Shown: positions 5,195 through 23,707 of the stretch, piece after piece
Layout of the letters: the number at the start of each line of letters is the position of its first letter
Position numbering within the stretch: the first letter of the stretch is position 1
DNA from: Bacteroidota bacterium
GTDB lineage: Bacteria > Bacteroidota > Bacteroidia > UBA8524
Direction of reading: 5' to 3'
DNA: 64,000 bases
NCBI GenBank assembly: GCA_006226545.1
Contig: SBGR01000038.1
Coordinates: 1-64,000 of the forward strand
Position numbers and translations under genes: made by a program
The notes under the pieces: model-generated
The model's input: the letters and a program-made list of their open reading frames with translations, nothing else
Databases searched by the model: none
What the model was told of the DNA's origin: nothing

Positions 5195-5893
5195 TTATAG
5201 AAAATCTCGCTTCAGGTATTGCACTAATTCCGGAACTCCAGAACTTGCATTTTGTTTGATGCAGCGCAAATTTTGAACCGAGTGCAGCGGTTCTGCTTGT
5301 GGGTCAATATAAAATTTGGGGGCTTGAACGGAGGCGTAATGAATGAGCCCCGCAGCCGGATACACTTGCATGGAAGTGCCAATTACAGCAAGCAAATCAG
5401 CATCGCTACAATGCAAGGCGGCATCCTCAATCAATGGAACAGATTCGCCAAACCATACAATATGAGGCCGGAGTTGGTGGCCTTTTTCACAGTTATCGCC
5501 TAGTTTCAACTCCCATCCCGGTAATTCATAAACGAGGTTTTCGTAAACGGTGCTCCGTACTTTTTTCAATTCGCCATGTAGGTGAATGATGTTTTGGGAG
5601 CCGGCCCTCTCGTGCAGGTCGTCTACGTTTTGTGTTACGATTACCACCTCAAAGAAATCTTCCAATTCGACCAAGGCATGGTGGGCAGGATTGGGTTCAA
5701 CTTCGAGCAGTTGTTTTCTACGTTGATTGTAGAATTCAAGTACCAATTCAGGATTGGCGTACCAGCCTTCCGGACTTGCTACCTCGTATACATTATGTCC
5801 TTCCCAGAGTCCGCCGGCATCACGGAAAGTTTTTAATCCCGATTCTGCCGAGATACCTGCTCCGGTTAAGACTACCAGTTTCTTTTTGGGCAT
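5195..5893 (-). CDS. cobB: Sir2 family NAD-dependent deacylase (CobB-like)
   Basis: GAGISAESGLKTFRD, TQNVDDLHERAG, HLHGEL and VWFGE motifs. Confidence 0.92.
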   Translation of the reverse strand: MPKKKLVVLTGAGISAESGLKTFRDAGGLWEGHNVYEVASPEGWYANPELVLEFYNQRRKQLLEVEPNPAHHALVELEDFFEVVIVTQNVDDLHERAGSQNIIHLHGELKKVRSTVYENLVYELPGWELKLGDNCEKGHQLRPHIVWFGESVPLIEDAALHCSDADLLAVIGTSMQVYPAAGLIHYASVQAPKFYIDPQAEPLHSVQNLRCIKQNASSGVPELVQYLKRDFL

Positions 5894-6663
5894 TATTTCA
5901 ACCAGGCTTTAATGAAGTAGATCACCGTAATCAATGGAAGCACAAAACTGAGAATTCCCAAAGCAATTCCAATGATGATGGAGTCGAGTAAATAGAGGAT
6001 GGGGTAGCCTATGGCTAAAACGAGAAAAGCTATAAAGAATATAAAGGTTTTGTTGATTAAGCTTTGATCGATCTTTTTTGGAAAGGAATAACGAACAAAG
6101 AATCTGTAGATTCGGTAGGCTAAGAATAGGAATGCAGCTGTGAAAAGTGCTCCTAAGAATATGGCGACGTAGTAACCTAATGTTGTGGTGAAGGATAAAT
6201 TCCCAAATAGCAAGGCAAGGAAAACCGCAGGAAAATAAAGGGCAATCAAGGCAACAAGCAATGCCGTAAAGAAAAAGGCAAAGAGAACAATGTACTCTAG
6301 CGCTTCAACCTGGTTTTCGTCTTCCTCATCATCGTCTGTGAGTGTTATGGCATCATGGTTTTCAGCTTCTTCAATTTGTGTTTTAAGCTCTGCTTCTTCT
6401 GCAACAGATTCACTCGGGGTGTTCTCATTATTTCCGGTAGCTATTGCTTCGGCGGGAAAGTGAGGTTCTTGAAAGGCAATCTTCACCTCGGTGGAATCTG
6501 GCTTTGTGCTTAAGCTGGCCGTTTTTTGCAATTCTTTTCGCTCTTCCCGAACCTCATAAACAGGATGAGCCTTCACCTTTTTAACATGCCAATAGCGTTG
6601 TTGGCATGCACTAAAAAGAAAACCCAAAAGCAGAATCGGAAATAAAATTTTCAAAGACTTCAT
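5893..6663 (-). CDS. CQQRY-family lipoprotein with C-terminal membrane domain (paralog 1)
   Basis: Signal peptide/lipobox FLFSAC followed by QQRYWHVKKVKAHP; several hydrophobic helices in the C-terminal half; stop overlaps the Sir2 start by 1 nt. Confidence 0.75.
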   Translation of the reverse strand: MKSLKILFPILLLGFLFSACQQRYWHVKKVKAHPVYEVREERKELQKTASLSTKPDSTEVKIAFQEPHFPAEAIATGNNENTPSESVAEEAELKTQIEEAENHDAITLTDDDEEDENQVEALEYIVLFAFFFTALLVALIALYFPAVFLALLFGNLSFTTTLGYYVAIFLGALFTAAFLFLAYRIYRFFVRYSFPKKIDQSLINKTFIFFIAFLVLAIGYPILYLLDSIIIGIALGILSFVLPLITVIYFIKAWLK

Positions 6664-6816
6664 AGCGAGATTAGTTCAGGTTGATGGTAAAGATACAATC
6701 TCTAAGATGGAATTGAACCTACTCGCAGGGTCAAAAGGAAAGTTTACATCCAACAGACCAAATGAGGCTATAGTCTGCCTGCTGTGGTAACTCCGTAACT
6801 GAGCTTTGGATGGTTG

Positions 6817-7557
6817 TTATGATTTGGACTTTAACTTACTGCCTCGAATAAGTTTACTTAATCCCATAACAGCCAATAGTACGATAACAACACTCGCTAA
6901 GAGGTGATGAATCATGGTTAAAAGGAAAATGCCTAGCAAAACTACAAGGACGTTTACAAACAAGTCGCCGAATTCAAGTTTAGTTCCTAAATATCCTTTG
7001 ACAATAAAGCGACTGTACAGTAGGGTGAGCAATATAATGACTGCCGGAATTGCCAATGAGGCTAGAAATAGTCCAGCTGGAAAACCAATGAAAATCGATC
7101 CAATGTAGATTGTTGTTACTTTGGGTATTAACAGAATTAAAAATATGGTCACAAAGCTGAGTAGCAAGGCTAATGTAATAAGGCTAGTAATTGCTACTCG
7201 ATCTGATTTTTCAAGTTCCGTCAATCGAATTGGTTCATCATTTATAGGCTGTTGGCCTACAGCTAGATCCGCCTGTAAGGAGTCTGCAGTTGTTGAATCA
7301 ACTGGGATGTTTATCCTTGTTTCTTCGCTTGGATACAGCTCAGAATTAATCGAATGGCTTGCTTCCACAGGTGCATTTGCCTCATAGTGGATGGAAGGGG
7401 TGATGGAAGGGACCGTTACGGGATGCAATTCTTTGTTTCGTTCTAGTTTAGCTTCAGGCTGAACTTTAACTTTTGGAATATGAGCATAACGTTGCTGACA
7501 AGCTGAGAAGAGTACCACCAGACTTAGCAGCCCAAACCCTAATTTCCGGATGTTCAT
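6817..7557 (-). CDS. CQQRY-family lipoprotein with C-terminal membrane domain (paralog 2)
   Basis: Lipobox VLFSAC + QQRYAHIPKVKVQP; multiple TM segments; start refined to internal ATG (MNIRKLGFGLL). Confidence 0.75.
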   Translation of the reverse strand: MNIRKLGFGLLSLVVLFSACQQRYAHIPKVKVQPEAKLERNKELHPVTVPSITPSIHYEANAPVEASHSINSELYPSEETRINIPVDSTTADSLQADLAVGQQPINDEPIRLTELEKSDRVAITSLITLALLLSFVTIFLILLIPKVTTIYIGSIFIGFPAGLFLASLAIPAVIILLTLLYSRFIVKGYLGTKLEFGDLFVNVLVVLLGIFLLTMIHHLLASVVIVLLAVMGLSKLIRGSKLKSKS

Positions 7558-7564
7558 TTTAGTT

Positions 7565-8281
7565 TTAGAATTTGCTGTTTTTCTTGTGCTTACTGCCATG
7601 GAGAATACTGATTAAACCGAGAATGGAGAATACAGAAAGTACGAGGTAAGGTCCCCAAAAACTGATGATGAGCGAGACCAGTAAAACCAAACCGAGTAAT
7701 AAAAGTAGAATTGAAATATCGCCGATATTCAATCGCTCGCCCAAATACCATTTGATAAATAAGTGAGTGATAAAGAGAATGCTCAATGCGATTAATCCAA
7801 TAATCAGCAAGGTAGGAAGGAGCGTATTAGCGGCGCTGACCAAGGCAAAGGTGTTGAAAAAGGATTCTAAAAAATAGGTATAGGCTACTAACCAGGCAGA
7901 TGAAACGGTAAGTAAGCCGAGACTACTGATGCCAAGCACACCTAACTGATCGGATCGATTCAGGTCTCTGTACCGCAATGATTCAGGTTCTTCATCCTCA
8001 TCTATTTCTAAAGATTGACTCTTGCTTGAATCAAGTGCGTTAGCCGGATCAAGCGACGTATCGTGAACAGTATAAAGCTCAGGCTGAATTGCCTGAGCTT
8101 TTAAGGGTTCTACGGTTAACTCAATTGGAGAGCTTAAATGGGAAATAGGTTCAACTTCCAATACTGCATTTGCAATTGGCTTTGGCTGCGCTTTCACTTT
8201 AGGAATATGAGCATAGCGTTGCTGACAGGAGCTTAAAAGAATAAATACAATTAGCAGTTGGAAGGTGGGTTTCAGGTTCAT
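7565..8281 (-). CDS. CQQRY-family lipoprotein with C-terminal membrane domain (paralog 3)
   Basis: Lipobox ILLSSC + QQRYAHIPKVKAQP; multiple TM segments. Confidence 0.75.
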   Translation of the reverse strand: MNLKPTFQLLIVFILLSSCQQRYAHIPKVKAQPKPIANAVLEVEPISHLSSPIELTVEPLKAQAIQPELYTVHDTSLDPANALDSSKSQSLEIDEDEEPESLRYRDLNRSDQLGVLGISSLGLLTVSSAWLVAYTYFLESFFNTFALVSAANTLLPTLLIIGLIALSILFITHLFIKWYLGERLNIGDISILLLLLGLVLLVSLIISFWGPYLVLSVFSILGLISILHGSKHKKNSKF

Positions 8282-8316
8282 GGAATAGGGTCGAGGTTCA
8301 GTGTAAAACTAAGCAA

Positions 8317-9042
8317 TCATTTTTTAATAAAAACACCGTAAATCAATGCGATAAAGCCAATAAAACCGATTACTCCTACAATGTACATAGCGAATTCCGG
8401 CAGGTATGGCAAGGCGAAAAGCAATAGTGCAAATACTACTGTGGTGAGTAATAAAAGAAAAACAAGATTAAGTCGTTTTTTGAAATAGGCTTTAGTGAAC
8501 CAATGATTGAAAAGAAGGGAAAAGAGTAGGCCCAGAATAGTGAGAGTGGCAAAGGCTAAGGCGCTAATTTCCCATGTAGCAAGAATAATAATTAGTACTG
8601 GAAAAACCGCAGCGAGTAGGCCTAGCATTACTGCAAGAACTGTTATGCAAACGGCCACTAGGATATCGGTTAAACTCATGTCAATGATGCCTAGCCTGTC
8701 CGGTTTTTGATAGGATTCTTCTGTTTCAGATTGTGTTGTACTATCGGCAACTTGAGTTAGGGGCAGCGTCTCTTGCGATGAAGTAGCGCTTTCCACCAAG
8801 ATGGTAGAATCTGGAATGGATTTTAACTCAATCGGTTCTAAAATAGGCGTGGCTAAAGAAGTGGGCTCCCATAGTATATTGGATTTTAAAGTTTCAAGCG
8901 GGGCAACTTCTTGCTTTTTTGAATTGGATTCTGCTTCTGAGGCATAATCACGTACTTTAACTTTTGCTCGGTGCCCATAGCGCTGTTGAGAACAGGAAGC
9001 CAATAGCACGGCTAGGATAAGGAAAATAGGTTTTAGGTTCAT
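8317..9042 (-). CDS. CQQRY-family lipoprotein with C-terminal membrane domain (paralog 4)
   Basis: Lipobox VLLASC + SQQRYGHRAKVKVR; multiple TM segments; start refined to MNLKPIF. Confidence 0.75.
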   Translation of the reverse strand: MNLKPIFLILAVLLASCSQQRYGHRAKVKVRDYASEAESNSKKQEVAPLETLKSNILWEPTSLATPILEPIELKSIPDSTILVESATSSQETLPLTQVADSTTQSETEESYQKPDRLGIIDMSLTDILVAVCITVLAVMLGLLAAVFPVLIIILATWEISALAFATLTILGLLFSLLFNHWFTKAYFKKRLNLVFLLLLTTVVFALLLFALPYLPEFAMYIVGVIGFIGFIALIYGVFIKK

Positions 9043-9139
9043 GGTATAATGCATTTGACAACACAATATAGGATTGTGATGCATTAAATTGCGTAGAAGT
9101 AAATTAGAATGACGATTACTTTACAAAACCATGACAAGC

Positions 9140-12946: not shown

Positions 12947-13777
12947 ATGAAACAACTGTTTACTCTGTTGATATTCCTATTAGCAGTTCAAGTCAAAGCG
13001 CAAGACAAAATCATCACAGTAGATTCGGACACCATAGAATGCAAAGTAATGGAGAGAGGTTCAGATGCCGTTTCCTATGTTTTGTTTTCTGATTTAAGTG
13101 GACCCGCCAAAACAATCAAGTATACTCAGATTCACAAAATCATCATGCAATCTGGCGCTGAAACTGAATTCACAGCTTTAAATAAACCTAAGGTGCGTAC
13201 GATCAATGGAGTACCTGAAGAAGAGGTCAAGAAACAGAATGATGAATATGCGTATTGGAATAGGCATGCATTCCGACTGAGTTATGGAATGTCCATGGGA
13301 CTTGTTTATTCCGGAACCGATTGGAATAAAGATGTATTCGTTTCCTATTCAATTGGTTTAACCCCAAGAAAATATTTAAAATTTACATTGGGTTGGGGAC
13401 ATTCAGCTGATTTAAAAAGATCCTTGGGTTGGGAATACTGGGGAGACTATCGAACTTTTTCAAGTTCCATAACCTACAGGTACGTATGGGTTAATAGGCC
13501 GAAGCTTCGTGTTTTCTCTGGACTGGGTATCGGTTATTTAGATACAGAAGCCATGATGTCAGATTTAGTATTTAATCCTAGCCCACTAGATTACAAGTTT
13601 GGTTCAAAGGAACAAGTAGTGAGAGAGTTTAATGAGTTTTATGGCTACAGTGGAATTCTTCCTGATATAGAACTGATTGGCCTCGAGTACGTTTTTAGAG
13701 AGCATTGGCTCATTGGCTCTAAATTAGGGTACTCAACTTCTGGGATGGCAACATTAGGGATTGGATATAGTTTTTAA
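12947..13777 (+). CDS. secreted protein with probable outer-membrane beta-barrel C-terminus (paralog A)
   Basis: Signal peptide; N-terminal DKIITVDSDTIECKV domain; aromatic beta-strand-like C-terminus ending GYSF; tandem paralog of the next CDS. Confidence 0.75.
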   Translation: MKQLFTLLIFLLAVQVKAQDKIITVDSDTIECKVMERGSDAVSYVLFSDLSGPAKTIKYTQIHKIIMQSGAETEFTALNKPKVRTINGVPEEEVKKQNDEYAYWNRHAFRLSYGMSMGLVYSGTDWNKDVFVSYSIGLTPRKYLKFTLGWGHSADLKRSLGWEYWGDYRTFSSSITYRYVWVNRPKLRVFSGLGIGYLDTEAMMSDLVFNPSPLDYKFGSKEQVVREFNEFYGYSGILPDIELIGLEYVFREHWLIGSKLGYSTSGMATLGIGYSF

Positions 13778-13803
13778 ACACTTACTATTTTAGTTATATA
13801 AAC

Positions 13804-14655
13804 ATGGTGAAAATGTTTGTCATTAAAAAATGGATATTAGCCGTTGTGCTAACAGTGTCTTGTTTGTCACTTTGCGCCCAAGACAAAATCATCACAGTAG
13901 ATTCGGACACCATAGAGTGCAAAATCATGGAGAAAGGATCGAACGAAGTTTCGTATGTATTGTATGCAGACTTAAGCGGACCAGCACGAACAATAAAGTA
14001 TGCACAGATTCACAAAATTATCATGCAATCGGGTGCTGAAACCGAATACACAGCTTTAAATAAACCTAAGGTGCGCATGATAAATGGAGTGCCAGAAGAG
14101 GAAGTTAAGAAACAAAATGATGAATATGCGTATTGGAATCGGCATGCATTCCGACTGGATATAGGCGCATCCATGGGGAATATGTTTTCCGGTTCCGGTT
14201 TGATAGCGGATGTTTTGCCTTCCTATTCCTTTGGTCTTACACCTAGGAAGTATTTGAAACTAACTGGAGGCATGGGTTATGGTGCCGGATATGAAAGCTG
14301 GAGAGGCTGGAATTATGATGTAGAATATTATACCTATAACTTGACTTTAACCTACAGGTATCATTGGTTAAATAAGCCGAAATTAAGGTTGTTTTCCGGC
14401 TTGGGCTTGGGCTACTTATTAACTGACGCATACATGCTTAATTTGCAGTTTGACCCTTCACCTTTTTCAACAGACATTGCAACAGAACAGGAGATACTTT
14501 CTGATTTTGATTTATATTACGGAATTGACGGCATAGTTCCGGATATTGAGCTGATTGGTATTGAGTTTATTTTAGGCAATAATTGGTTAATTGGTTCAAA
14601 GCTTGGAATAGGCTCGGCAGGTTTAGCCACTATAGGAGTAGGATATACATTCTGA
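13804..14655 (+). CDS. secreted protein with probable outer-membrane beta-barrel C-terminus (paralog B)
   Basis: Signal peptide; near-identical N-terminal domain to paralog A; C-terminal GVGYTF. Confidence 0.75.
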   Translation: MVKMFVIKKWILAVVLTVSCLSLCAQDKIITVDSDTIECKIMEKGSNEVSYVLYADLSGPARTIKYAQIHKIIMQSGAETEYTALNKPKVRMINGVPEEEVKKQNDEYAYWNRHAFRLDIGASMGNMFSGSGLIADVLPSYSFGLTPRKYLKLTGGMGYGAGYESWRGWNYDVEYYTYNLTLTYRYHWLNKPKLRLFSGLGLGYLLTDAYMLNLQFDPSPFSTDIATEQEILSDFDLYYGIDGIVPDIELIGIEFILGNNWLIGSKLGIGSAGLATIGVGYTF

Positions 14656-16070
14656 TGCAGGTTGTGAGAGGATTATTTAGGTTAGTATTCATTTTTGTTT
14701 CAATTAATTGTGTTGGGCAAGTAGCGGAGCCACACCCGGAAAGAACAAAGCCCAATCCTAGGAAAAGAAGCAGCCCCGCCCCGGCAACACAAAACTTACC
14801 ATTAGCTGGCGATGCAGGATTACTAATTATGGTTGATTACCCATCTACCCTGTATGTGGATGGACTTCGAATTGGTGAGTTTGATAAAGGTGCTTCTTGG
14901 CCTTATAAAATTATGGCAGGCACCCATCTTATCCAGCTTAAAACTGAAAAGGACACATGGGATACCTCGGTTGTTTGTGTTTCCAAGGTACAAGTCACCA
15001 TAGTAACCAACATAAACAAGGTTGTAAATATTCGCGTGGTTCGGGAAGTGAAGGAAGAAATGAGACGTCGAGAGTTAGAGAGAAGGGAAAAAGAACGACT
15101 TGACTCACTGAAAAGGGTAGAAGAACAAAAAAGGCAAGAGGCATTGGAGCGACAGCGATATTTAGACAGCATGGCAAAGGTTCAGGCTGAAAGAGAACGA
15201 ATAGCTGAACAAAGAAGAAAAGACAGTATCGCTGAGGCTAAGCGTAGACAAAAAATATTAGATGACAGCCTTGCATTGGTGGCAAAGAAGCTGGCGGCCT
15301 TGGAAAAAAAGCGAAAAGAACTCGCTGAAATGGAGTTGAAAAGGAAGGCTCAGCGTCTTGTAGAACTCAAAAAAGCGAAGGTGAGAAATCCGGAAGTTAT
15401 TGTTGACTTCGAATTCTCCATGGTAAGCATCACCGGAGGAACATTCAAAATGGGTTGCACTGTTGATCAAATTCGCGAATGTGAAGGAGATGAACGCCCG
15501 GTTAAATCAGCGCAAGTAGCCGACTTCAAAATAAGCAAGTTTGAGGTCACCCAAGAGCTTTGGGACGCGGTAATGGATACCAATGTTTCTGTGCATGCGG
15601 GTTGCGCTAAATGTCCGGTAGAAAACATACGCTACGGCGATGTACAGGTCTTTATTAGCAAACTCAATAAACTGACTGGAAAGAACTACAGATTGCCCAC
15701 CGAAGCAGAATGGGAATACGCCGCTCGTGGCGGACAGAAAGCTGAAAGCGAGGTACCAAGCATCAGTCAAGTGGCGTGGTATAGTAACAATAGCGGACAA
15801 ACAACCCACGAAGTAGGACAATTGAAGCCGAATGCACTTGGACTTTATGATATGCTTGGCAATGTTTGGGAATACTGCTCCGATTGGTATGATCCAACCT
15901 ACTATAGCACTCAAAATCTGACAAACCCCAAAGGGCCGTTAACAGGAGCTGAATACGTTATTCGTGGTGGTAGCTTTTTTAGCGCCGCCTCAGAATGTCG
16001 TGTAGCTAACCGAAACTCTATTTTCCCAATCATGGCTCACAAAAGCTATGGATTCCGACTTGCAGAGTGA
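14655..16070 (+). CDS. PEGA-like / charged helix / SUMF1 (FGE-sulfatase) domain protein
   Basis: LPTEAEWEYAARGG, GNVWEYCSDW and RGGSFF motifs of SUMF1; start ATG 14655 overlaps the previous stop (TGATG). Confidence 0.8.
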   Translation: MQVVRGLFRLVFIFVSINCVGQVAEPHPERTKPNPRKRSSPAPATQNLPLAGDAGLLIMVDYPSTLYVDGLRIGEFDKGASWPYKIMAGTHLIQLKTEKDTWDTSVVCVSKVQVTIVTNINKVVNIRVVREVKEEMRRRELERREKERLDSLKRVEEQKRQEALERQRYLDSMAKVQAERERIAEQRRKDSIAEAKRRQKILDDSLALVAKKLAALEKKRKELAEMELKRKAQRLVELKKAKVRNPEVIVDFEFSMVSITGGTFKMGCTVDQIRECEGDERPVKSAQVADFKISKFEVTQELWDAVMDTNVSVHAGCAKCPVENIRYGDVQVFISKLNKLTGKNYRLPTEAEWEYAARGGQKAESEVPSISQVAWYSNNSGQTTHEVGQLKPNALGLYDMLGNVWEYCSDWYDPTYYSTQNLTNPKGPLTGAEYVIRGGSFFSAASECRVANRNSIFPIMAHKSYGFRLAE

Positions 16071-16396: not shown

Positions 16397-17917
16397 CTAC
16401 AGGTTATTGATGTTTATCCCTTTCACCATCTTCCGTTGCTGTAAGAGCATATTGTCATCACCGGCAGATGAACCGAATTCTTGCTCTAACTCAACCCCGG
16501 TATTTGGATCAAAAGCAGCGATGCGGATAACTCCATCCTCAGTATACGATAAGGTAACCTCTACCGCGTAATTCATTCTGGGGTTCGGAATTGGTCCAAT
16601 GGTGACGGTTCCGATATCAATAAAGTCGTTGCTGTTTTCCAAATACTGCACTACCTCCAAAGAGATTTTCCGTTGCGTATCAGAATGGGTATAGTAGGTT
16701 CTGGAACCTTTGGCGGGCAAAGGCATGTTCTTCTTAATCAGGGTGTCAATCTCTGTTCTTCCCGTACGTGGATTTAAGGTTTTAATGCCCACATTATAAC
16801 CGGTAATGCCTTTGAACTCAGGCGGTATATTGAATTGAGCGGCATCGCCTGAAAGCTGACTAGCATGCAAAGATGCTCCGTAGGCTACCGCCTTCATAGG
16901 CTCGTGGAAGAATATCTTCTGTTTTTGGTCCGGGAACAGTTTGCGTAAGCGTTCACGGATATAAGGAATCATGGATGAACCACCCACAAGCAGCAACGCA
17001 TCAATGTCTTTTTCTTTCAAGCCGGCCGCATCTAAGCAGCGCAGCGTAATCGCAATGGTCTGTTCTATCGATTCGTGAATCGCTTTTTCAAACTCTTTGC
17101 GGTTTAAAGTGATGTCAATCGCTTGGTATCCCAGGAGCACCGTCTTACGCAAGAAGGTTACATTCGGTAAGGAAAGTTCAATCTTAATTTCTTCGCTAAT
17201 GCGTCTGAGTTGCAAGAGGGTAAACGCATTCAATTCAGGGGTATGTCCCAACGTGCGCTCAAACTGTTCCAACACAAAAGCGGCCACGCACTCATCAAAT
17301 TCTTTCCCACCTAACTCGGTTAGCCCGTCTTTCGCTAAAACATATACGCCTTTGTCATCTAAACTCAGAACGGTAGCATCAAAGGTTCCTCCGCCCAGGT
17401 CATAAACCAATAAAACTTGTCCGTGTGTACTGTGCGTAATGCCGTAATGAAGTGCTGCAGCAACGGGTTCTTCCACCAAGCCTAAAATTGGCATATCTGC
17501 CATAGCCGCGGCATGAATTACACCTTTACGCTGCAAGTCGTTGAAGTGAGCAGGAACGGTAATAACAGCGCTTTCAATGCGTGATCCGGTATAGCTTTCG
17601 GCGTCAAATTGCAGCTTCTTTAAAACCAAGGCACCGAGCGATTCTGCATGCCAGGCGTTCTGCGATTTATCAAAGTAAACAGGTTCACCTGTACCAAATT
17701 TTCGCTTAAAGAAGCGAAGTACAGGAAGCTCAGGGTTTTGTTCGAGTAAGGTATCTACCAAGCTGCCAATGATGGCGTTTCCTTGCGTGATATACGCGGC
17801 GCTCGGTGTAGCAAAAATGTCTTTATCTGAATGATCCGGGATAAGGATGGGCTTGCCATCCGGTCCGAGGCGGGAGATTAAGGAATAGGTTGTTCCGAGG
17901 TCTATGCCAACTTTCAT
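16397..17917 (-). CDS. accessory Hsp70 (DnaK-like) without alpha-helical lid
   Basis: VGIDLGTTYS, VYDLGGGTFDATVL, LLVGGSSMIPYI motifs; only 506 aa, ending shortly after the beta substrate-binding-domain region. Confidence 0.9.
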   Translation of the reverse strand: MKVGIDLGTTYSLISRLGPDGKPILIPDHSDKDIFATPSAAYITQGNAIIGSLVDTLLEQNPELPVLRFFKRKFGTGEPVYFDKSQNAWHAESLGALVLKKLQFDAESYTGSRIESAVITVPAHFNDLQRKGVIHAAAMADMPILGLVEEPVAAALHYGITHSTHGQVLLVYDLGGGTFDATVLSLDDKGVYVLAKDGLTELGGKEFDECVAAFVLEQFERTLGHTPELNAFTLLQLRRISEEIKIELSLPNVTFLRKTVLLGYQAIDITLNRKEFEKAIHESIEQTIAITLRCLDAAGLKEKDIDALLLVGGSSMIPYIRERLRKLFPDQKQKIFFHEPMKAVAYGASLHASQLSGDAAQFNIPPEFKGITGYNVGIKTLNPRTGRTEIDTLIKKNMPLPAKGSRTYYTHSDTQRKISLEVVQYLENSNDFIDIGTVTIGPIPNPRMNYAVEVTLSYTEDGVIRIAAFDPNTGVELEQEFGSSAGDDNMLLQQRKMVKGININNL

Positions 17918-19671
17918 ACTTTTCTTCTCAATTCACGTTCACGTGCACGTTCATCGCGCATCACTTGGTTGTACGCGAGGCGAAGATCGGTTTTTAATCG
18001 ACTTAAAGTACGTTCCCAGCCGTTTCTATTCTTGCGTGCCGTCTCAATTTTCTTGTCCATCATCTCAAATCCGGCACTGGTTCTTTGGCTGTTCAATTTG
18101 GCTTGTTCCTCCAGCTGACCTTGTTTCTCTTCTTCCGATTTTAAAGCAGATTCAGCGGCAACAATCATGGCGCTAAACTCGGCTTTGAGGTGTTCTTGCA
18201 TCTGTTTGATCCAGTAGCGATTCACTTCAGAAGCCATGTTTTTGGCGAGGTTCAATAAATGGTCTTTGGCCTTGCCCAATTCTTTGTCCGTACCTTCTTC
18301 GCGTTCTTTACGCACGTTTGCACTCACGCTGTAAGCACCATAACCAATCAATACAATGGTTAATGGAATCATGTACAAGCGCATGTTTTTAAAGAAGGTA
18401 AGGCCGAGCGACGACGCCATCATAAAAACCAACATTTGGTATTTACGCATGGCCATGAAGTATTCGTAGGCGCCTTTTTTAGTTACGCTTCCTTCGTAGT
18501 TTCGGTCAGAATGACCTAGTCCTTCCAAAAGCGAATTCATGGCATCTGTAGTCATGAAACCCACGTGTTGTCCCAAATGTGCATTGGAGTTGCGCTCCAA
18601 CTTTTGCATCAGCTCTGCTGCGCTTTCGTGAAGCAGGTCGTTTGCACTTTTGATATCGTTCAACATCTGCTGACTTAAATCGCTTTTCAATTGCGACTTA
18701 AAATACTGCTGAAATTTATCTGGAATGCGAAGTGTATTTTGTTTGGTTCCTTGGGTCTCTTCTAAACCACTTAATTCGTTTAACAAGGCATCAGTGAGTT
18801 GTTTAAACGGACCCGAAGCCGGTTGAAAGAAATCGGCATATTTCTTCTCTAAACCTTTAATAAAGCTGGTTTGAACGGAGTTGAATTCGCTTTTAAGCTG
18901 ACTGATCAACTTGCTGGCTTTTGTATTGCCGCCTTCTTTGCTTAGCGAAGCATTTTCGGTAACCATGTTCAAGGCTTTTTTGCCTTTGTTGTTTCGTTCT
19001 TCCTGATCTAGGATAAGTCCGAAAATGGTATTGTTTGCTTCCAAGGCCAATACGCTTTGAGCGAGCGAAAACACCTGAAGTCGGGCTGCACTATAGTTTT
19101 CTTCTAAAAACCCTTTGAAGCCGGCTTCTTGGTTAAGATCTACCCATTGTGAGTCGATCATATTGCGCTTTTCTTCTTCGCTCAATGCCCATTTTTTGCC
19201 GGTATTTTCTTCAGACCAAATCAAAACGCCGGAATAATCCGGATACATCGTATTGAAATGTGAATGCCATTCTTCGGTTTGTTCCGGTGGCGCATCGGCA
19301 GGAATATAGGCAACCAATAGTGCGCTGTTTTGCAATCCCGACGATTTATTCACCGGCATGGTCCAGTCGTAGACATGCCATATCAGTTCAATACCGTCTA
19401 GGCTAAAGCTGAAATCCTGTTTTTCAGTATGCTCCTTACCGGGGGCATCCCGTTCAGGAAATAAGGTTTTTAGCGAAGTATTCTCTGATTCATGGAAAGA
19501 CTCTCCGTAGCAAATCAGGTCGATATTGACTTGGTTTCGAGCATAAGAGCTCAGAATGCTTTCCAGCTGTGTTTCAATTTGTCTTGTAGCATTCGGAATG
19601 CCCACTTCTTTGATGTTTTGCAGCAAATTTTCAGTGGCTGTTCCGAGGTTATTCAGGGCTTTTGTACTCAT
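17914..19671 (-). CDS. membrane-associated coiled-coil protein with possible degenerate GTPase-like N-terminus
   Basis: 585 aa; hydrophobic hairpin LVFMMASSLGLTFFKNMRLYMIPLTIVLIGYGAYSV; flanking coiled-coil segments; stop overlaps the Hsp70 start by 4 nt. Confidence 0.75.
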   Translation of the reverse strand: MSTKALNNLGTATENLLQNIKEVGIPNATRQIETQLESILSSYARNQVNIDLICYGESFHESENTSLKTLFPERDAPGKEHTEKQDFSFSLDGIELIWHVYDWTMPVNKSSGLQNSALLVAYIPADAPPEQTEEWHSHFNTMYPDYSGVLIWSEENTGKKWALSEEEKRNMIDSQWVDLNQEAGFKGFLEENYSAARLQVFSLAQSVLALEANNTIFGLILDQEERNNKGKKALNMVTENASLSKEGGNTKASKLISQLKSEFNSVQTSFIKGLEKKYADFFQPASGPFKQLTDALLNELSGLEETQGTKQNTLRIPDKFQQYFKSQLKSDLSQQMLNDIKSANDLLHESAAELMQKLERNSNAHLGQHVGFMTTDAMNSLLEGLGHSDRNYEGSVTKKGAYEYFMAMRKYQMLVFMMASSLGLTFFKNMRLYMIPLTIVLIGYGAYSVSANVRKEREEGTDKELGKAKDHLLNLAKNMASEVNRYWIKQMQEHLKAEFSAMIVAAESALKSEEEKQGQLEEQAKLNSQRTSAGFEMMDKKIETARKNRNGWERTLSRLKTDLRLAYNQVMRDERARERELRRKV

Positions 19672-19691
19672 GGGCTGATGCGAATATACAA

Positions 19692-21833
19692 TTATGCTCC
19701 GGCAGATGCAGCGGCAGAAGCAGCTCGGTCTGCAGCATCTTCCGCTCTGTCAGCAGCGCTATCGGCTTTAGATGCTGAACTTTCACACTGAGAAACCAAT
19801 TGCTCACATTCTTTGGCAGACGATTCACAATCGGATTTCAGGTCTTCGCATTCGCTTTTGATTCCTTCAATGTCCGATTTCAGCTCCTCACATTCTCCTT
19901 TGAGTTCATCGCAGTTGTCTTTAAGCTCTTCACATTCGTCGCGCAGACTGGAAGAATCGTCGCGTAAAGATTCGCATTCATCACGCAGGGAGCTCGACTC
20001 GTCTTTCAAGTCGGTGCACTCATCTCGCAGGTCGGTACACTCGTCGCGCAAGGTGGTACATTCATCACGTAAGCCTTCATTCTCATCGCGCAATCCTTGA
20101 CTTTCATCTCTCAGGCTGATGTTTTCGTCTCTCAGTTCTGTAGAGTTATCGCGGAGGTCGGTAATTTCAGATTGTAAACCAATGCTATTGTCGCGTATGC
20201 CTGCAATTTCTTGTTCTAAGGTTCCGCAGTTGTCGCGTAAACCTGCAGATTCATCGCGCAAGGCAGTAACTTCATCGCGCAAGCTCATGGTGTCTTGGTT
20301 GGTCTGCTCACATTGCTCGAATACCGTTCTGATATTGCTAAGTACGGTAGTGGCTTCTTCACTTTTGGTGGAGATTTCTTGAACGATGGTGATACTTTCT
20401 TCTCGCTGACTCACAATGGTACTCAGTTCAGACTGTGCATCCGATTCGCAGCTGCGGATGGTATCGATATACGATTGACAATCTGTTTCGATGGTATGGC
20501 AATGGTCGTGGCAGGTATTAACATTCACTTCCACTTCTTGAACGGCAACCAATACCTGAGAAGCTTGTTGGTTGTTTTCTTGAATCACAACCACAGTTTG
20601 TTCTGCGGTGCTTTGGAATTCGTGGATATGTCCGATGCACGATTCTGCTTCTTGCTCGTGGCTTCGGATATGGCTTAAGATACTTTCAGCTTCACTGTCG
20701 TGCTGGCGAATATGGTTTACGAGCGATTCTGCCTCACCGTCGTGACGTCTGATTTCACTCACCAAGTTTTCTGCCTCATTATCGTGTTGCTTGATGTGAT
20801 CCAATTCCGATTCGGCTTCTTGGTCCATCTTTTTAATTTCTTCCAAAAGCTCATTGGATTCGGAGCGGAAGCCTTCAATCTCATCTTGTAGTTTTTCAGA
20901 TTCTTGTCTGAAGTCTTCAATTTCTTTCTTCAGCTCAGACGATTCATCTTTAAGTTCGTCGATGGCATCTTTCAGCTCACCACTGTCTTTGTGGAAGGTG
21001 GTGATTTCTTCTTTTAGTTCAGCTGATTTGCTTTCGTGTTCGATGATGGTATTCAGGAGTTTTTCTCCCTCTTGTTCGTCTTTGGTGATAGAGTCGAGGA
21101 GTTCTTTCACCTCGTTGTTCATTTCAGTGGTATTATCGAGCAAGCCTTGAATTGCATCCCGGTCCGATTCGGCATTTTGCAGGGCCTCTTGGATTGCATT
21201 TTCATTTTCCTTGCTGGTATTGAGTAGGTCAGCGATAGTGTCTGACATCTCGTTAACACTCTGTTGGCGGTCTTCAACCTCAGCGTTGATTTGCTGAATT
21301 TTACCTTCAATTTCGGTGGCGCTGTCTTCTGCCTGTTTGATTTGATCGAGGTAGTTGGAAGCAGAATCTTCCATTTCTCTGATTTGATCGCGGTTTCTGT
21401 CTGCTGACTCTTCCATTTCGCGGATGGCTTGCAGTGAATCGTGCGCTTCTTCTTTTATTTCATTCAACTGAGTTGAGTATTCTTTCGCTTCAGCTAAAAG
21501 TTCAGTCAGGGCATCTTTTTCGGCTAGTATCTGAGCTAGGGTGTCGTTTACTTCCGATTTTATTCCTTCCATTTCATCGCGAATGCCACTGATTTCTATT
21601 TTCATGGCTTCCATTTCTTCCGCAAGTGCTGCGGTGTCTGTAGTGGTGGATTCGGTTTCTTGTGCCACGCTTTCTGTTTGGGTCATGCTTTGTTGCATTT
21701 CATCCAAAATTGCGCTCATTTCAGAGTTGGAGTTTTCCATTGAACTCTTCATTGCCATCATTTCATCGTAGAGCGTTTGAGCGTTGGAAAGCATTGATTC
21801 CATCTCGGCGCTGAATGTAGATTGATCTGCCAT
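19692..21833 (-). CDS. long coiled-coil repeat protein with Cys/Ser/Asn-cored heptads
   Basis: 713 aa, almost entirely heptad-like; 16 consecutive xxLRDEC-type heptads; five 14-aa IRxHDxEAESLxxH repeats; Ala-rich tail; no signal peptide. Confidence 0.85.
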   Translation of the reverse strand: MADQSTFSAEMESMLSNAQTLYDEMMAMKSSMENSNSEMSAILDEMQQSMTQTESVAQETESTTTDTAALAEEMEAMKIEISGIRDEMEGIKSEVNDTLAQILAEKDALTELLAEAKEYSTQLNEIKEEAHDSLQAIREMEESADRNRDQIREMEDSASNYLDQIKQAEDSATEIEGKIQQINAEVEDRQQSVNEMSDTIADLLNTSKENENAIQEALQNAESDRDAIQGLLDNTTEMNNEVKELLDSITKDEQEGEKLLNTIIEHESKSAELKEEITTFHKDSGELKDAIDELKDESSELKKEIEDFRQESEKLQDEIEGFRSESNELLEEIKKMDQEAESELDHIKQHDNEAENLVSEIRRHDGEAESLVNHIRQHDSEAESILSHIRSHEQEAESCIGHIHEFQSTAEQTVVVIQENNQQASQVLVAVQEVEVNVNTCHDHCHTIETDCQSYIDTIRSCESDAQSELSTIVSQREESITIVQEISTKSEEATTVLSNIRTVFEQCEQTNQDTMSLRDEVTALRDESAGLRDNCGTLEQEIAGIRDNSIGLQSEITDLRDNSTELRDENISLRDESQGLRDENEGLRDECTTLRDECTDLRDECTDLKDESSSLRDECESLRDDSSSLRDECEELKDNCDELKGECEELKSDIEGIKSECEDLKSDCESSAKECEQLVSQCESSASKADSAADRAEDAADRAASAAASAGA

Positions 21834-21961
21834 TGTAATTAGGTTTTTTGTGGTTTTCGTAGGAAAGATACGTTAAAAATTGCTGAATTATTGTTGGAAG
21901 AGTCTTGATTTTACTCATTTTGTAGCAAATACCTAAATTCAATTATCTTCGCTCGGCAAAT

Positions 21962-22792
21962 ATGAACAGCTCAGACGCACACATTATTTTAGGCTTAAAC
22001 GAAGGAGCATCTCCTGAGGAAATGGAAGCCAAGTTTCAAGAAGTGTATAGCGATTACCAAATTCGCTTGTCCAATGCACCCACACCCAATCTGAAGAAAC
22101 TCTACCAAAAGAATCTGCAAGAATTGGAGGAAGCTTATAACTTACTTAGTGGTGGGGTAAACACGTCTAGCGACCTACCGAGCTCCAAGCCTCAGTTGGA
22201 GGTGAAGAAGACAGTAGCGCCACCACCTCCTGTTCAGACGCAGCAACATACCACCGCTGCCAAAACGAGTATGGCCAGTAAGTCGGCTCCGGCTAATACC
22301 CATGCAGGTTCAAAAAAGGGCGTGCTTTACGGTGGTTTGATTGCCTTGGTGGGCATCGGTGTTTCTGTGCTTTTTGGCTTGCTTTATTTCCAAGGACAAG
22401 CAGAGCAAGACGCAGTGAAGGAAAAGATGGAAGCGGAACAGCAAAAACAAGCAGAGAAGCTTGAGCGCGCTGAATTATTGGAACGCATCTTCCACGAAGA
22501 GAAATTTAAAATTAAAAATGCAGGCCGTCACAGTTTGAAAGTGCTAACCATTGCAGCAACTTTCATGAACGATAAAGACGAGTTGGAGAAGGCTGAGTTT
22601 TATTCAGGTGAAATTATTGAAGCTGGAAAGACATACGATGCCATGATTGTTAAAGGTTCACGCACCATTTACGATGGGGACGTAATAAGTTACGCCTTGT
22701 CCTTTGAATACGATGGAACACGTTATACCACGGGTGGTGTGTATTCACAAGATGCCAAAGACGGCATGCTCATCATCAAGATGGATCGCTGA
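21962..22792 (+). CDS. membrane protein with J-domain-like N-terminus lacking HPD
   Basis: AHIILGLNEGASPEEMEAKFQEVYSDY...LQELEEAYNLLSGG resembles J-domain helices I, II and III; single TM GVLYGGLIALVGIGVSVLFGLLYF. Confidence 0.7.
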   Translation: MNSSDAHIILGLNEGASPEEMEAKFQEVYSDYQIRLSNAPTPNLKKLYQKNLQELEEAYNLLSGGVNTSSDLPSSKPQLEVKKTVAPPPPVQTQQHTTAAKTSMASKSAPANTHAGSKKGVLYGGLIALVGIGVSVLFGLLYFQGQAEQDAVKEKMEAEQQKQAEKLERAELLERIFHEEKFKIKNAGRHSLKVLTIAATFMNDKDELEKAEFYSGEIIEAGKTYDAMIVKGSRTIYDGDVISYALSFEYDGTRYTTGGVYSQDAKDGMLIIKMDR

Positions 22793-22862: not shown

Positions 22863-23129
22863 TTAGTGCTTGCAAAGCTCCTTGATATGTGCTTTTTCTG
22901 CATCGCTAAGCTTCAACACATCTTGGTTTAGCGGGTCTGTGATATGCTTCTCCATAATGCGGTCTATGTATTCAGTCTGAATCTCGTATTGCGTGCAGGG
23001 ATTGCAAATGCTTCTATGCCATTTCAGCTGTTGCTTTTCAATGAAGTTCAATTTGAAATTCTGTTCCTTTTCCATCAAAGCGCTGGCTTTGCGGCAAGAG
23101 AGTGCAAAAAAGTGTGTGATGAATTTCAT
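22863..23129 (-). CDS. small anti-sigma-like mini zinc finger protein (zf-HC2-like)
   Basis: 88 aa; SCRKASALMEKEQNFKLNFIEKQQLKWHRSICNPCTQYE matches the HxxxCxxC pattern; immediately follows the ECF sigma gene. Confidence 0.65.
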   Translation of the reverse strand: MKFITHFFALSCRKASALMEKEQNFKLNFIEKQQLKWHRSICNPCTQYEIQTEYIDRIMEKHITDPLNQDVLKLSDAEKAHIKELCKH

Positions 23130-23707
23130 TCTGCTTTTTTAAACCAGTTGTTTTCGAGACAAGCTCGAAGTTGCAATTTCGCGCGGTGCATAATCTGCCA
23201 GAAGTTGGACGGTGAAACATTAAGTTCCTGACAAATTACATCGCTTTCTTTTTTTTCCAAAAACTTCCAGACAATGGCGTTTCTGAACCGGTCAGATAAT
23301 CTGTTAATACAGGCGTCAAATACTTTTCGGAAGTCTAAGTCGTCCAATAAATTGAAATCAGCTTCAGTCCATGCTTGCGGACGAAATTCCGGTTTCCATT
23401 CACCATGTTCATTGAAGCGTTCGTCGCCACTATCCTCAAACTGCAGGTCGCTCATGTAAATGTTACGGCCTTTGTTTTTTCTGAAGTAATCTCTGATTTT
23501 ATTGTTCAAGATAGAGAATAGCCACGTTCTCACACTGCTTCTTCCTTCAAATTTAGCGAAGGCTTGGGAGGCTGCGATAAAAGTGTCCTGCACAAGGTCT
23601 TTTGCATTTTCAGGGTTGTTGAGTTTATACGAGGCCCAGGTATAAAGTTCATCGCTGTACAAATCTACCCATTCTGAAAGTTGAGCATTGGCTTCAGGCA
23701 TACTCAA
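23126..23707 (-). CDS. RNA polymerase ECF-family sigma factor
   Basis: NAKDLVQDTFIAASQAFAKFEGRSSVRTWLFSILNNKIRDYFRK (sigma-2) and a C-terminal sigma-4 HTH. Confidence 0.92.
   Translation of the reverse strand: MSMPEANAQLSEWVDLYSDELYTWASYKLNNPENAKDLVQDTFIAASQAFAKFEGRSSVRTWLFSILNNKIRDYFRKNKGRNIYMSDLQFEDSGDERFNEHGEWKPEFRPQAWTEADFNLLDDLDFRKVFDACINRLSDRFRNAIVWKFLEKKESDVICQELNVSPSNFWQIMHRAKLQLRACLENNWFKKAE

Follow-up and report, generated by a model that had tools for sequence, protein, structure and literature searches.

A lidless Hsp70 linked to a probable pseudo-dynamin in a rare gene set of uncultured Bacteroidota

Here we describe a set of five genes from a Bacteroidota bacterium (GTDB UBA8524), located in a 64,000-nucleotide (nt) stretch of DNA termed as a whole “the window” (assembly GCA_006226545.1, contig SBGR01000038.1). 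The genes encode a coiled-coil protein, a protein with a hydrophobic hairpin that is probably a pseudo-dynamin, a lidless Hsp70, a J-like membrane protein and a secreted protein with PEGA-like and FGE-sulfatase-fold domains. The linkage of these genes, the loss of the motifs by which an Hsp70 meets its J-protein and the retention of the Hsp70 ATP site can be read directly from the sequences. We tentatively favor the reading that the set serves the cell envelope as a dedicated, accessory module, with an ATP-driven pair of Hsp70 and pseudo-dynamin at its core. An earlier note made from the sequence alone had pointed out four of these genes, and the positions and sizes of its four open reading frames (ORFs), a 4-nt overlap and a 128-bp divergent gap were exactly confirmed. 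That four-gene set was incomplete, since a fifth, periplasmic partner (the PEGA-like/FGE gene, 14655-16070) had been missed. The features of the set are as follows.

19692..21833, minus strand: 713-amino-acid (aa) coiled-coil protein, free of proline and tryptophan, with a double-heptad (14-residue) repeat, LRDE heptads and an Ala-rich C-terminal tail
17914..19671, minus strand: 585-aa putative pseudo-dynamin, with two N-terminal helices, a Ras-like fold and a long helical trunk bearing the hydrophobic hairpin (predicted, AlphaFold2 and Foldseek)
19096..19539, minus strand: predicted degenerate G domain, residues ~45-192 of the 585-aa protein (b-a-b-b-b-a-b in the model; scan for GTP-binding motifs negative)
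18301..18480, minus strand: hydrophobic hairpin, residues ~398-457 of the 585-aa protein (alignment, hydropathy, two helices in the model)
16397..17917, minus strand: 506-aa lidless Hsp70 (Pfam HSP70 E 2.3e-78), ATPase residues kept, conserved C-terminal INxL tail
17480..17482, minus strand: Gly146 codon of the Hsp70, at the position of E. coli DnaK R167; Gly in every cluster Hsp70
16814..16828, minus strand: Hsp70 interdomain linker IPPEF, residues 364-368, replacing VLLLD; invariant among cluster Hsp70s
21962..22792, plus strand: 276-aa J-like membrane protein, with a putative cytosolic HPD-less J-like domain, Pro-rich linker, one transmembrane segment and predicted periplasmic tail domain
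22055..22069, plus strand: YQIRL of the J-like protein, residues 32-36, at the YHPDR position of J-domains (alignment)
22325..22396, plus strand: single transmembrane segment of the J-like protein, approximately residues 122-145 (sequence, hydropathy of the L014 homologue, alignment)
14583..16070, likely start 14655, plus strand: secreted PEGA-like, coiled-coil and FGE-sulfatase-fold protein (Pfam FGE-sulfatase E 2.1e-44), convergent with the Hsp70 gene

The ATG of the Hsp70 gene overlaps the stop of the hairpin gene by 4 nt (17914-17917, ATGA), and the divergent coiled-coil and J-like genes are separated by 128 bp. We searched the hairpin protein in 295 genomes of the class, 5 of the order and 396 of the phylum, together with 45 genomes from the order of G090 and 7 from that of G180. 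Clear homologues occur in six genomes of three Bacteroidia families, namely the window's own (1/5), f9 with G090 and G667 (2/45), and f4 with G003, G050 and G180 (3/7); the corresponding module loci are the window, L013/L091, L014, L011, L012/L052 and L026, where L014 belongs to G090, L052 to G003 and L091 to G180. In all six genomes the hairpin gene is followed by the Hsp70 gene with the identical 4-nt overlap, and beside this pair stand genes for secreted proteins that combine an N-terminal PEGA-like domain with an FGE-sulfatase-fold domain (6/6 loci). J-like genes are present at five loci, while the sixth contig (G667) begins at the hairpin gene, hiding that side; in 5/5 class genomes the hairpin gene is accompanied by the J-like domain (hypergeometric 3e-10, kinship uncorrected). 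A coiled-coil homologue lies on the same contig in 4/4 loci that reach far enough, those of the window, G090 (L014), G003 (L052) and G180 (L091). Thus the earlier note was right that the genes co-occur in relatives and that the coiled-coil protein belongs to the set, whereas conservation of the set, which the note proposed to test across Bacteroidota, holds for these three families and not in general: the set is patchy rather than pan-Bacteroidota, being absent from same-family genomes and from hundreds of other genomes in the class, order and phylum searches.

The 506-aa protein is matched by Pfam HSP70 (PF00012) at residues 3-486, up to profile position 501 of 599, and therefore the chain stops after the beta domain. 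It holds the features of the superfamily, a nucleotide-binding domain with phosphate loops and the beta part of the substrate-binding domain, and keeps D8, T11, T12, E171, D194, T199 and D201, in agreement with the earlier description of an Hsp70 with intact ATPase motifs that ends soon after the beta domain. The alpha lid and the DnaK C-terminal tail are gone; the protein ends ~20 residues past the beta substrate-binding domain, and all complete cluster chains finish in the INxL tail. All cluster Hsp70s have Gly in place of R167, the invariant IPPEF in place of the VLLLD linker, and also Glu in place of N170. The HPD motif contacts DnaK through Asp35, which bonds to R167, and through His33, which bonds to the linker (PMC8215388, PMC7289447). 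The window Hsp70 is 62-66% identical to the other cluster Hsp70s vs. ~28-32% to DnaK, HscA and HscC, and in our tree the cluster Hsp70s form a clade of their own on a long branch (support 100/100), which groups neither with DnaK nor HscA nor HscC, the latter represented in tree and comparison by one sequence on a long branch. Among 297 phylum genomes the Hsp70 reaches E 1e-100 in the window's own genome alone, suggesting a subfamily close to exclusive to the module loci. The separate DnaK that the earlier note wished to see confirmed is encoded on contig C37, with an HscA-like second Hsp70 on C32, and by sequence the cluster Hsp70 is distinct from both. The note's further statement, that no grpE or canonical dnaJ lies nearby, is borne out by a tblastn search with E. 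coli DnaJ, GrpE and HscB, none of which matches the window at E<=1.

The dependence of Hsp70s on J-proteins is generally attributed to the contact between HPD and R167, and both halves of this contact are missing from the module. The first ~63 residues of the J-like protein align with J-domains, helix pattern included, and the position of HPD is taken by QIR, QLR or ELL, followed by NAPTPNLKK, which is invariant in short J-like homologues. As R167, the linker motif and HPD are all lost, the normal J-triggered cycle could not run as in DnaK, which leaves the “dedicated chaperone machine” proposed earlier doubtful in the ordinary sense of the term. We infer that the J trigger has been lost and that binding of the J-like protein to Hsp70 is kept, if at all, for tethering. 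The C-terminal tail of the J-like protein is found again in L052, in a protein with a signal peptide that also bears a PEGA-like domain, and is for this reason most likely periplasmic.

Relatives of the J-like protein are found in several further contexts. Beside Hsp70 in f4 genomes lies a gene for a 723-aa J-like protein (L013:10911-13082) composed of two J-like repeats, TPR, a transmembrane segment, a PEGA-like domain and leucine-rich repeats. An operon-like run on contig C1 of G244 (L049:10653 to L050:9769) encodes J-like domains without HPD three times, once joined to GYF_2/DUF805 and once to a Fib_succ_major domain, together with SrfB, SrfC with a P-loop, a DO-GTPase1-like protein, a LysM protein and a subtilase. 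On contig C1 of G110 (L051:5022-19991), a J-like domain is fused to FHA and neighbored by a Ser/Thr kinase-FGE protein, a second FGE protein and PP2C; this locus adjoins the Bacteroidota type VI secretion system genes TssN and TssC. From the G244 and G110 contexts, related J-like modules therefore occur with ATPase/GTPase and envelope-signaling sets, and such domains may help in approaching the SrfB/SrfC operons, which are poorly understood.

One could instead see in the set a specialized membrane-protein chaperone like E. coli HscC with its tail-anchored DjlB/DjlC, where hairpin protein and coiled coil are merely clients and neither switch nor remodeling is involved. HscC is likewise a short, non-housekeeping Hsp70 encoded next to membrane-anchored J-type proteins (PMC8215388), and GrpE is found in neither the window nor the HscC stretch. 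However, HscC keeps R167, an aspartate at the D393 position and a reduced lid, its partners are true J-domain proteins, and the cluster Hsp70 (~28% identical) falls outside HscC on the tree, in another clade. The HscC set also goes without a pseudo-dynamin, coiled coil or FGE partner, no coiled-coil or FGE gene being annotated in its stretch, which makes this explanation unlikely.

Another possibility that we do not consider probable is a conflict system for defense or competition, in which the periplasmic/FGE parts would sense an invader and the Hsp70/pseudo-dynamin pair would act as effector or threshold. Its models are the GTPase systems with HSP70, GrpE and DnaJ fusions (Kaur et al., 2020; PMC7159879), with FGE (FGS) domains in the wider class, and SrfABC. 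The patchy distribution in the carrying groups (1/5, 2/45, 3/7) fits this idea, as do the HPD-less J-like domains inside one Bacteroidota SrfB/SrfC operon (a P-loop/Virul_Fac protein plus a large SrfB) with its DO-GTPase1-like protein. With the DO-GTPase/GAP1 systems the set shares the combination of HSP70, a J-type domain and a GTPase-fold component, the latter two as predicted. However, DO-GTPase/GAP1 systems need DO-GTPase and GAP1, neither of which Pfam finds in the cluster proteins, so that the set cannot be assigned to them; GrpE is also lacking, and the GTPase-fold component is here the predicted pseudo-dynamin. Nor do the window proteins match SrfB or SrfC (PF07520, PF10139; Pfam), the latter of which retains its P-loop. 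PADLOC gives generic coiled-coil matches and weak ones of 10-14 bits only, and no nuclease, protease or pore effector was recognized in the window cluster.

Mobility, too, speaks against a conflict system: the GC content of the cluster equals that of its surroundings, and the hairpin protein has no match in plasmids, while its profile gave 59 pattern matches in viral contigs, none confirmed. Between families, the cluster Hsp70s share less identity (65-71%) than the DnaKs do (78-80%), so that, GC content included, there is no sign of recent horizontal transfer. Beyond Bacteroidota, our coverage consisted of plasmids and one scan of genome contigs for short peptide patterns, whose sole matches were the three f4 metagenome-assembled genomes, all Bacteroidota. 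Hsp70 matches on plasmids have ~32% identity, and of these two were inspected together with their annotation, both being full-length DnaK encoded next to dnaJ. Weak hairpin matches in G293 (L015, a conjugative-element region) and G389 were discarded as chance. The view of the earlier note that the set is membrane-linked and matches no characterized system is upheld. Searches of the open-licence literature gave no description of this gene combination, although this is not proof of absence, and we regard the set as rare and undescribed, carried by few uncultured Bacteroidota.

For the 585-aa hairpin protein, no significant sequence match was found in Pfam, NCBIfam, PADLOC or PDB. The AlphaFold2 model of the window protein, made from a four-row alignment, has a predicted local distance difference test score (pLDDT) of 47 and runs helix-helix-strand-helix-three strands-helix-strand, with long helices and the hairpin, whose region carries invariant RKYQM and MxP and would sit at the paddle/membrane-tip position. 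In Foldseek against PDB the top match is IniA, a bacterial dynamin (E 2.6e-4), followed by MxB and almost exclusively Ras/Rab/Arl-type GTPases, and the search of viral models retrieves dynamin family GTPases (E 7e-6). The L013 homologue, which is 26% identical (pLDDT 62), gives the Campylobacter pair of dynamin-like proteins (DLPs), Cj-DLP, first (E 2.9e-4), with Mgm1, OPA1, IniA and Drp1 among its first eight matches. A motif scan of four homologues found no P-loop GxxxxGK[S/T] and no [N/T]KxD, so the GTP-binding motifs G1-G4 of dynamins are lacking. Given a dynamin-first fold ranking in two homologues and no P-loop, the protein is called here a probable pseudo-dynamin with a dead G domain; the hydrophobic hairpin seen earlier is real, and from the models it appears to be part of a dynamin-like protein rather than a mere membrane anchor. 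Like the bacterial DLPs (IniA, Cj-DLP1/2, BDLP1), of which IniA and the Cj-DLP pair rank top by fold, it is predicted to have a G domain, a long helical trunk and a hydrophobic tip; unlike them, it is without GTP-binding motifs and is a single gene linked to Hsp70, not to a second DLP. Profile-profile comparison with SrfC was negative, and no sequence-level link to SrfC or PDB was found. It is very doubtful that the protein is an ordinary coiled-coil membrane protein in a loose gene neighborhood, its dynamin likeness being an artefact of weak models: the low pLDDT, the many helical matches that long-helix models draw lower in the list and the negative SrfC comparison would fit, but nearly all matches of the N-terminal b-a-b-b-b-a-b domain are Ras-like GTPases, two sequences of 26% identity lead to the same assignment, and the linkage is conserved in three families.

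The 713-aa protein gives generic coiled-coil matches only in Pfam. Its homologues measure 668 aa (L014), 735 and 335 aa (L052) and 763 and 335 aa (L091) and have the 14-residue period and Ala-rich tail in common; autocorrelation at lag 14 is 0.43-0.57, above that at lag 7, in the window, L014 and L052 proteins. LRDE heptads occur in the window protein and the second L052 protein. The common period, these heptads and the tail argue for homology beyond coiled-coil composition. In the secreted partner, “PEGA-like” is our reading of the sequence, no Pfam PEGA match being returned. The six cluster FGE-fold proteins have at most one Cys after RGGS, the position at which, as in SUMF1, the FGE active-site cysteine pair lies; with this pair missing, catalytic FGE activity was rejected.

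Coming back to the Hsp70/pseudo-dynamin pair, the dynamin-like fold (dead G domain, trunk and inner-membrane hairpin) and the membrane topology are predicted features, from which the following mechanism may be drawn. Because the pseudo-dynamin could no longer switch by GTP, the ATP cycle of Hsp70 would supply the switch of the pseudo-dynamin/coiled-coil scaffold in its place. Hsp70 would bind and release the pseudo-dynamin, the coiled coil or both, and the scaffold would thereby assemble on, or leave, the inner membrane. The J-like protein would be a trans-envelope tether that brings Hsp70 to the membrane without the usual HPD-triggered hydrolysis, and it may report the state of the periplasmic PEGA/FGE proteins. 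Taken further, the set might be a new nucleotide-switched membrane machine, where a dead-G-domain dynamin stands under an Hsp70 freed from J-protein control and ATP replaces GTP as the fuel of membrane/filament remodeling, coupled to periplasmic FGE/PEGA sensors; this we put forward as a speculative possibility. That the HPD-R167 contact has lost both its sides in one conserved lineage makes this lineage a natural test of other uses of Hsp70, and if the Hsp70 partner is truly a pseudo-dynamin, a dead membrane GTPase would have its switch supplied by a chaperone ATPase. Several points weigh against the favored reading. Made from four-row alignments, the fold models reach pLDDT 47 and 62, a low to moderate confidence, and template modeling scores (TM-scores) over the full length stay <0.3, so that the dynamin assignment relies on ranking and consistency, not on good superposition. 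The J-like assignment is weak by sequence, with E 0.0018 for the HPD J-domain of L055 as best in a small set, E 0.66 for E. coli DnaJ and no Pfam DnaJ match. The sample amounts to six genomes, three of one genus, and the coiled coil is recorded at the four loci whose contigs reach far enough, those of the other two ending too early.

Several neighboring genes were noted as well. Beside the J-like gene lie an ECF (extracytoplasmic function) sigma factor (Pfam Sigma70_r2 E 6.8e-17) and a small overlapping 88-aa ORF (window 22863-23707); the sigma gene was considered as a regulator of the set, and no counterpart was seen at the relatives' loci. Inside the f4 loci, a highly hydrophobic repetitive ORF that overlaps another frame (L052:13606-14091 and L091:1966-2457) is possibly not a true gene. 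The PEGA-like/FGE gene is immediately preceded by a tandem pair of paralogous genes for secreted proteins, whose N-terminal halves are near-identical (window 12947-14655), and at window 5893-9084 we found four tandem paralogous lipoprotein-like genes that share a QRYxH/HxxKVK-type N-terminal motif and C-terminal transmembrane segments.

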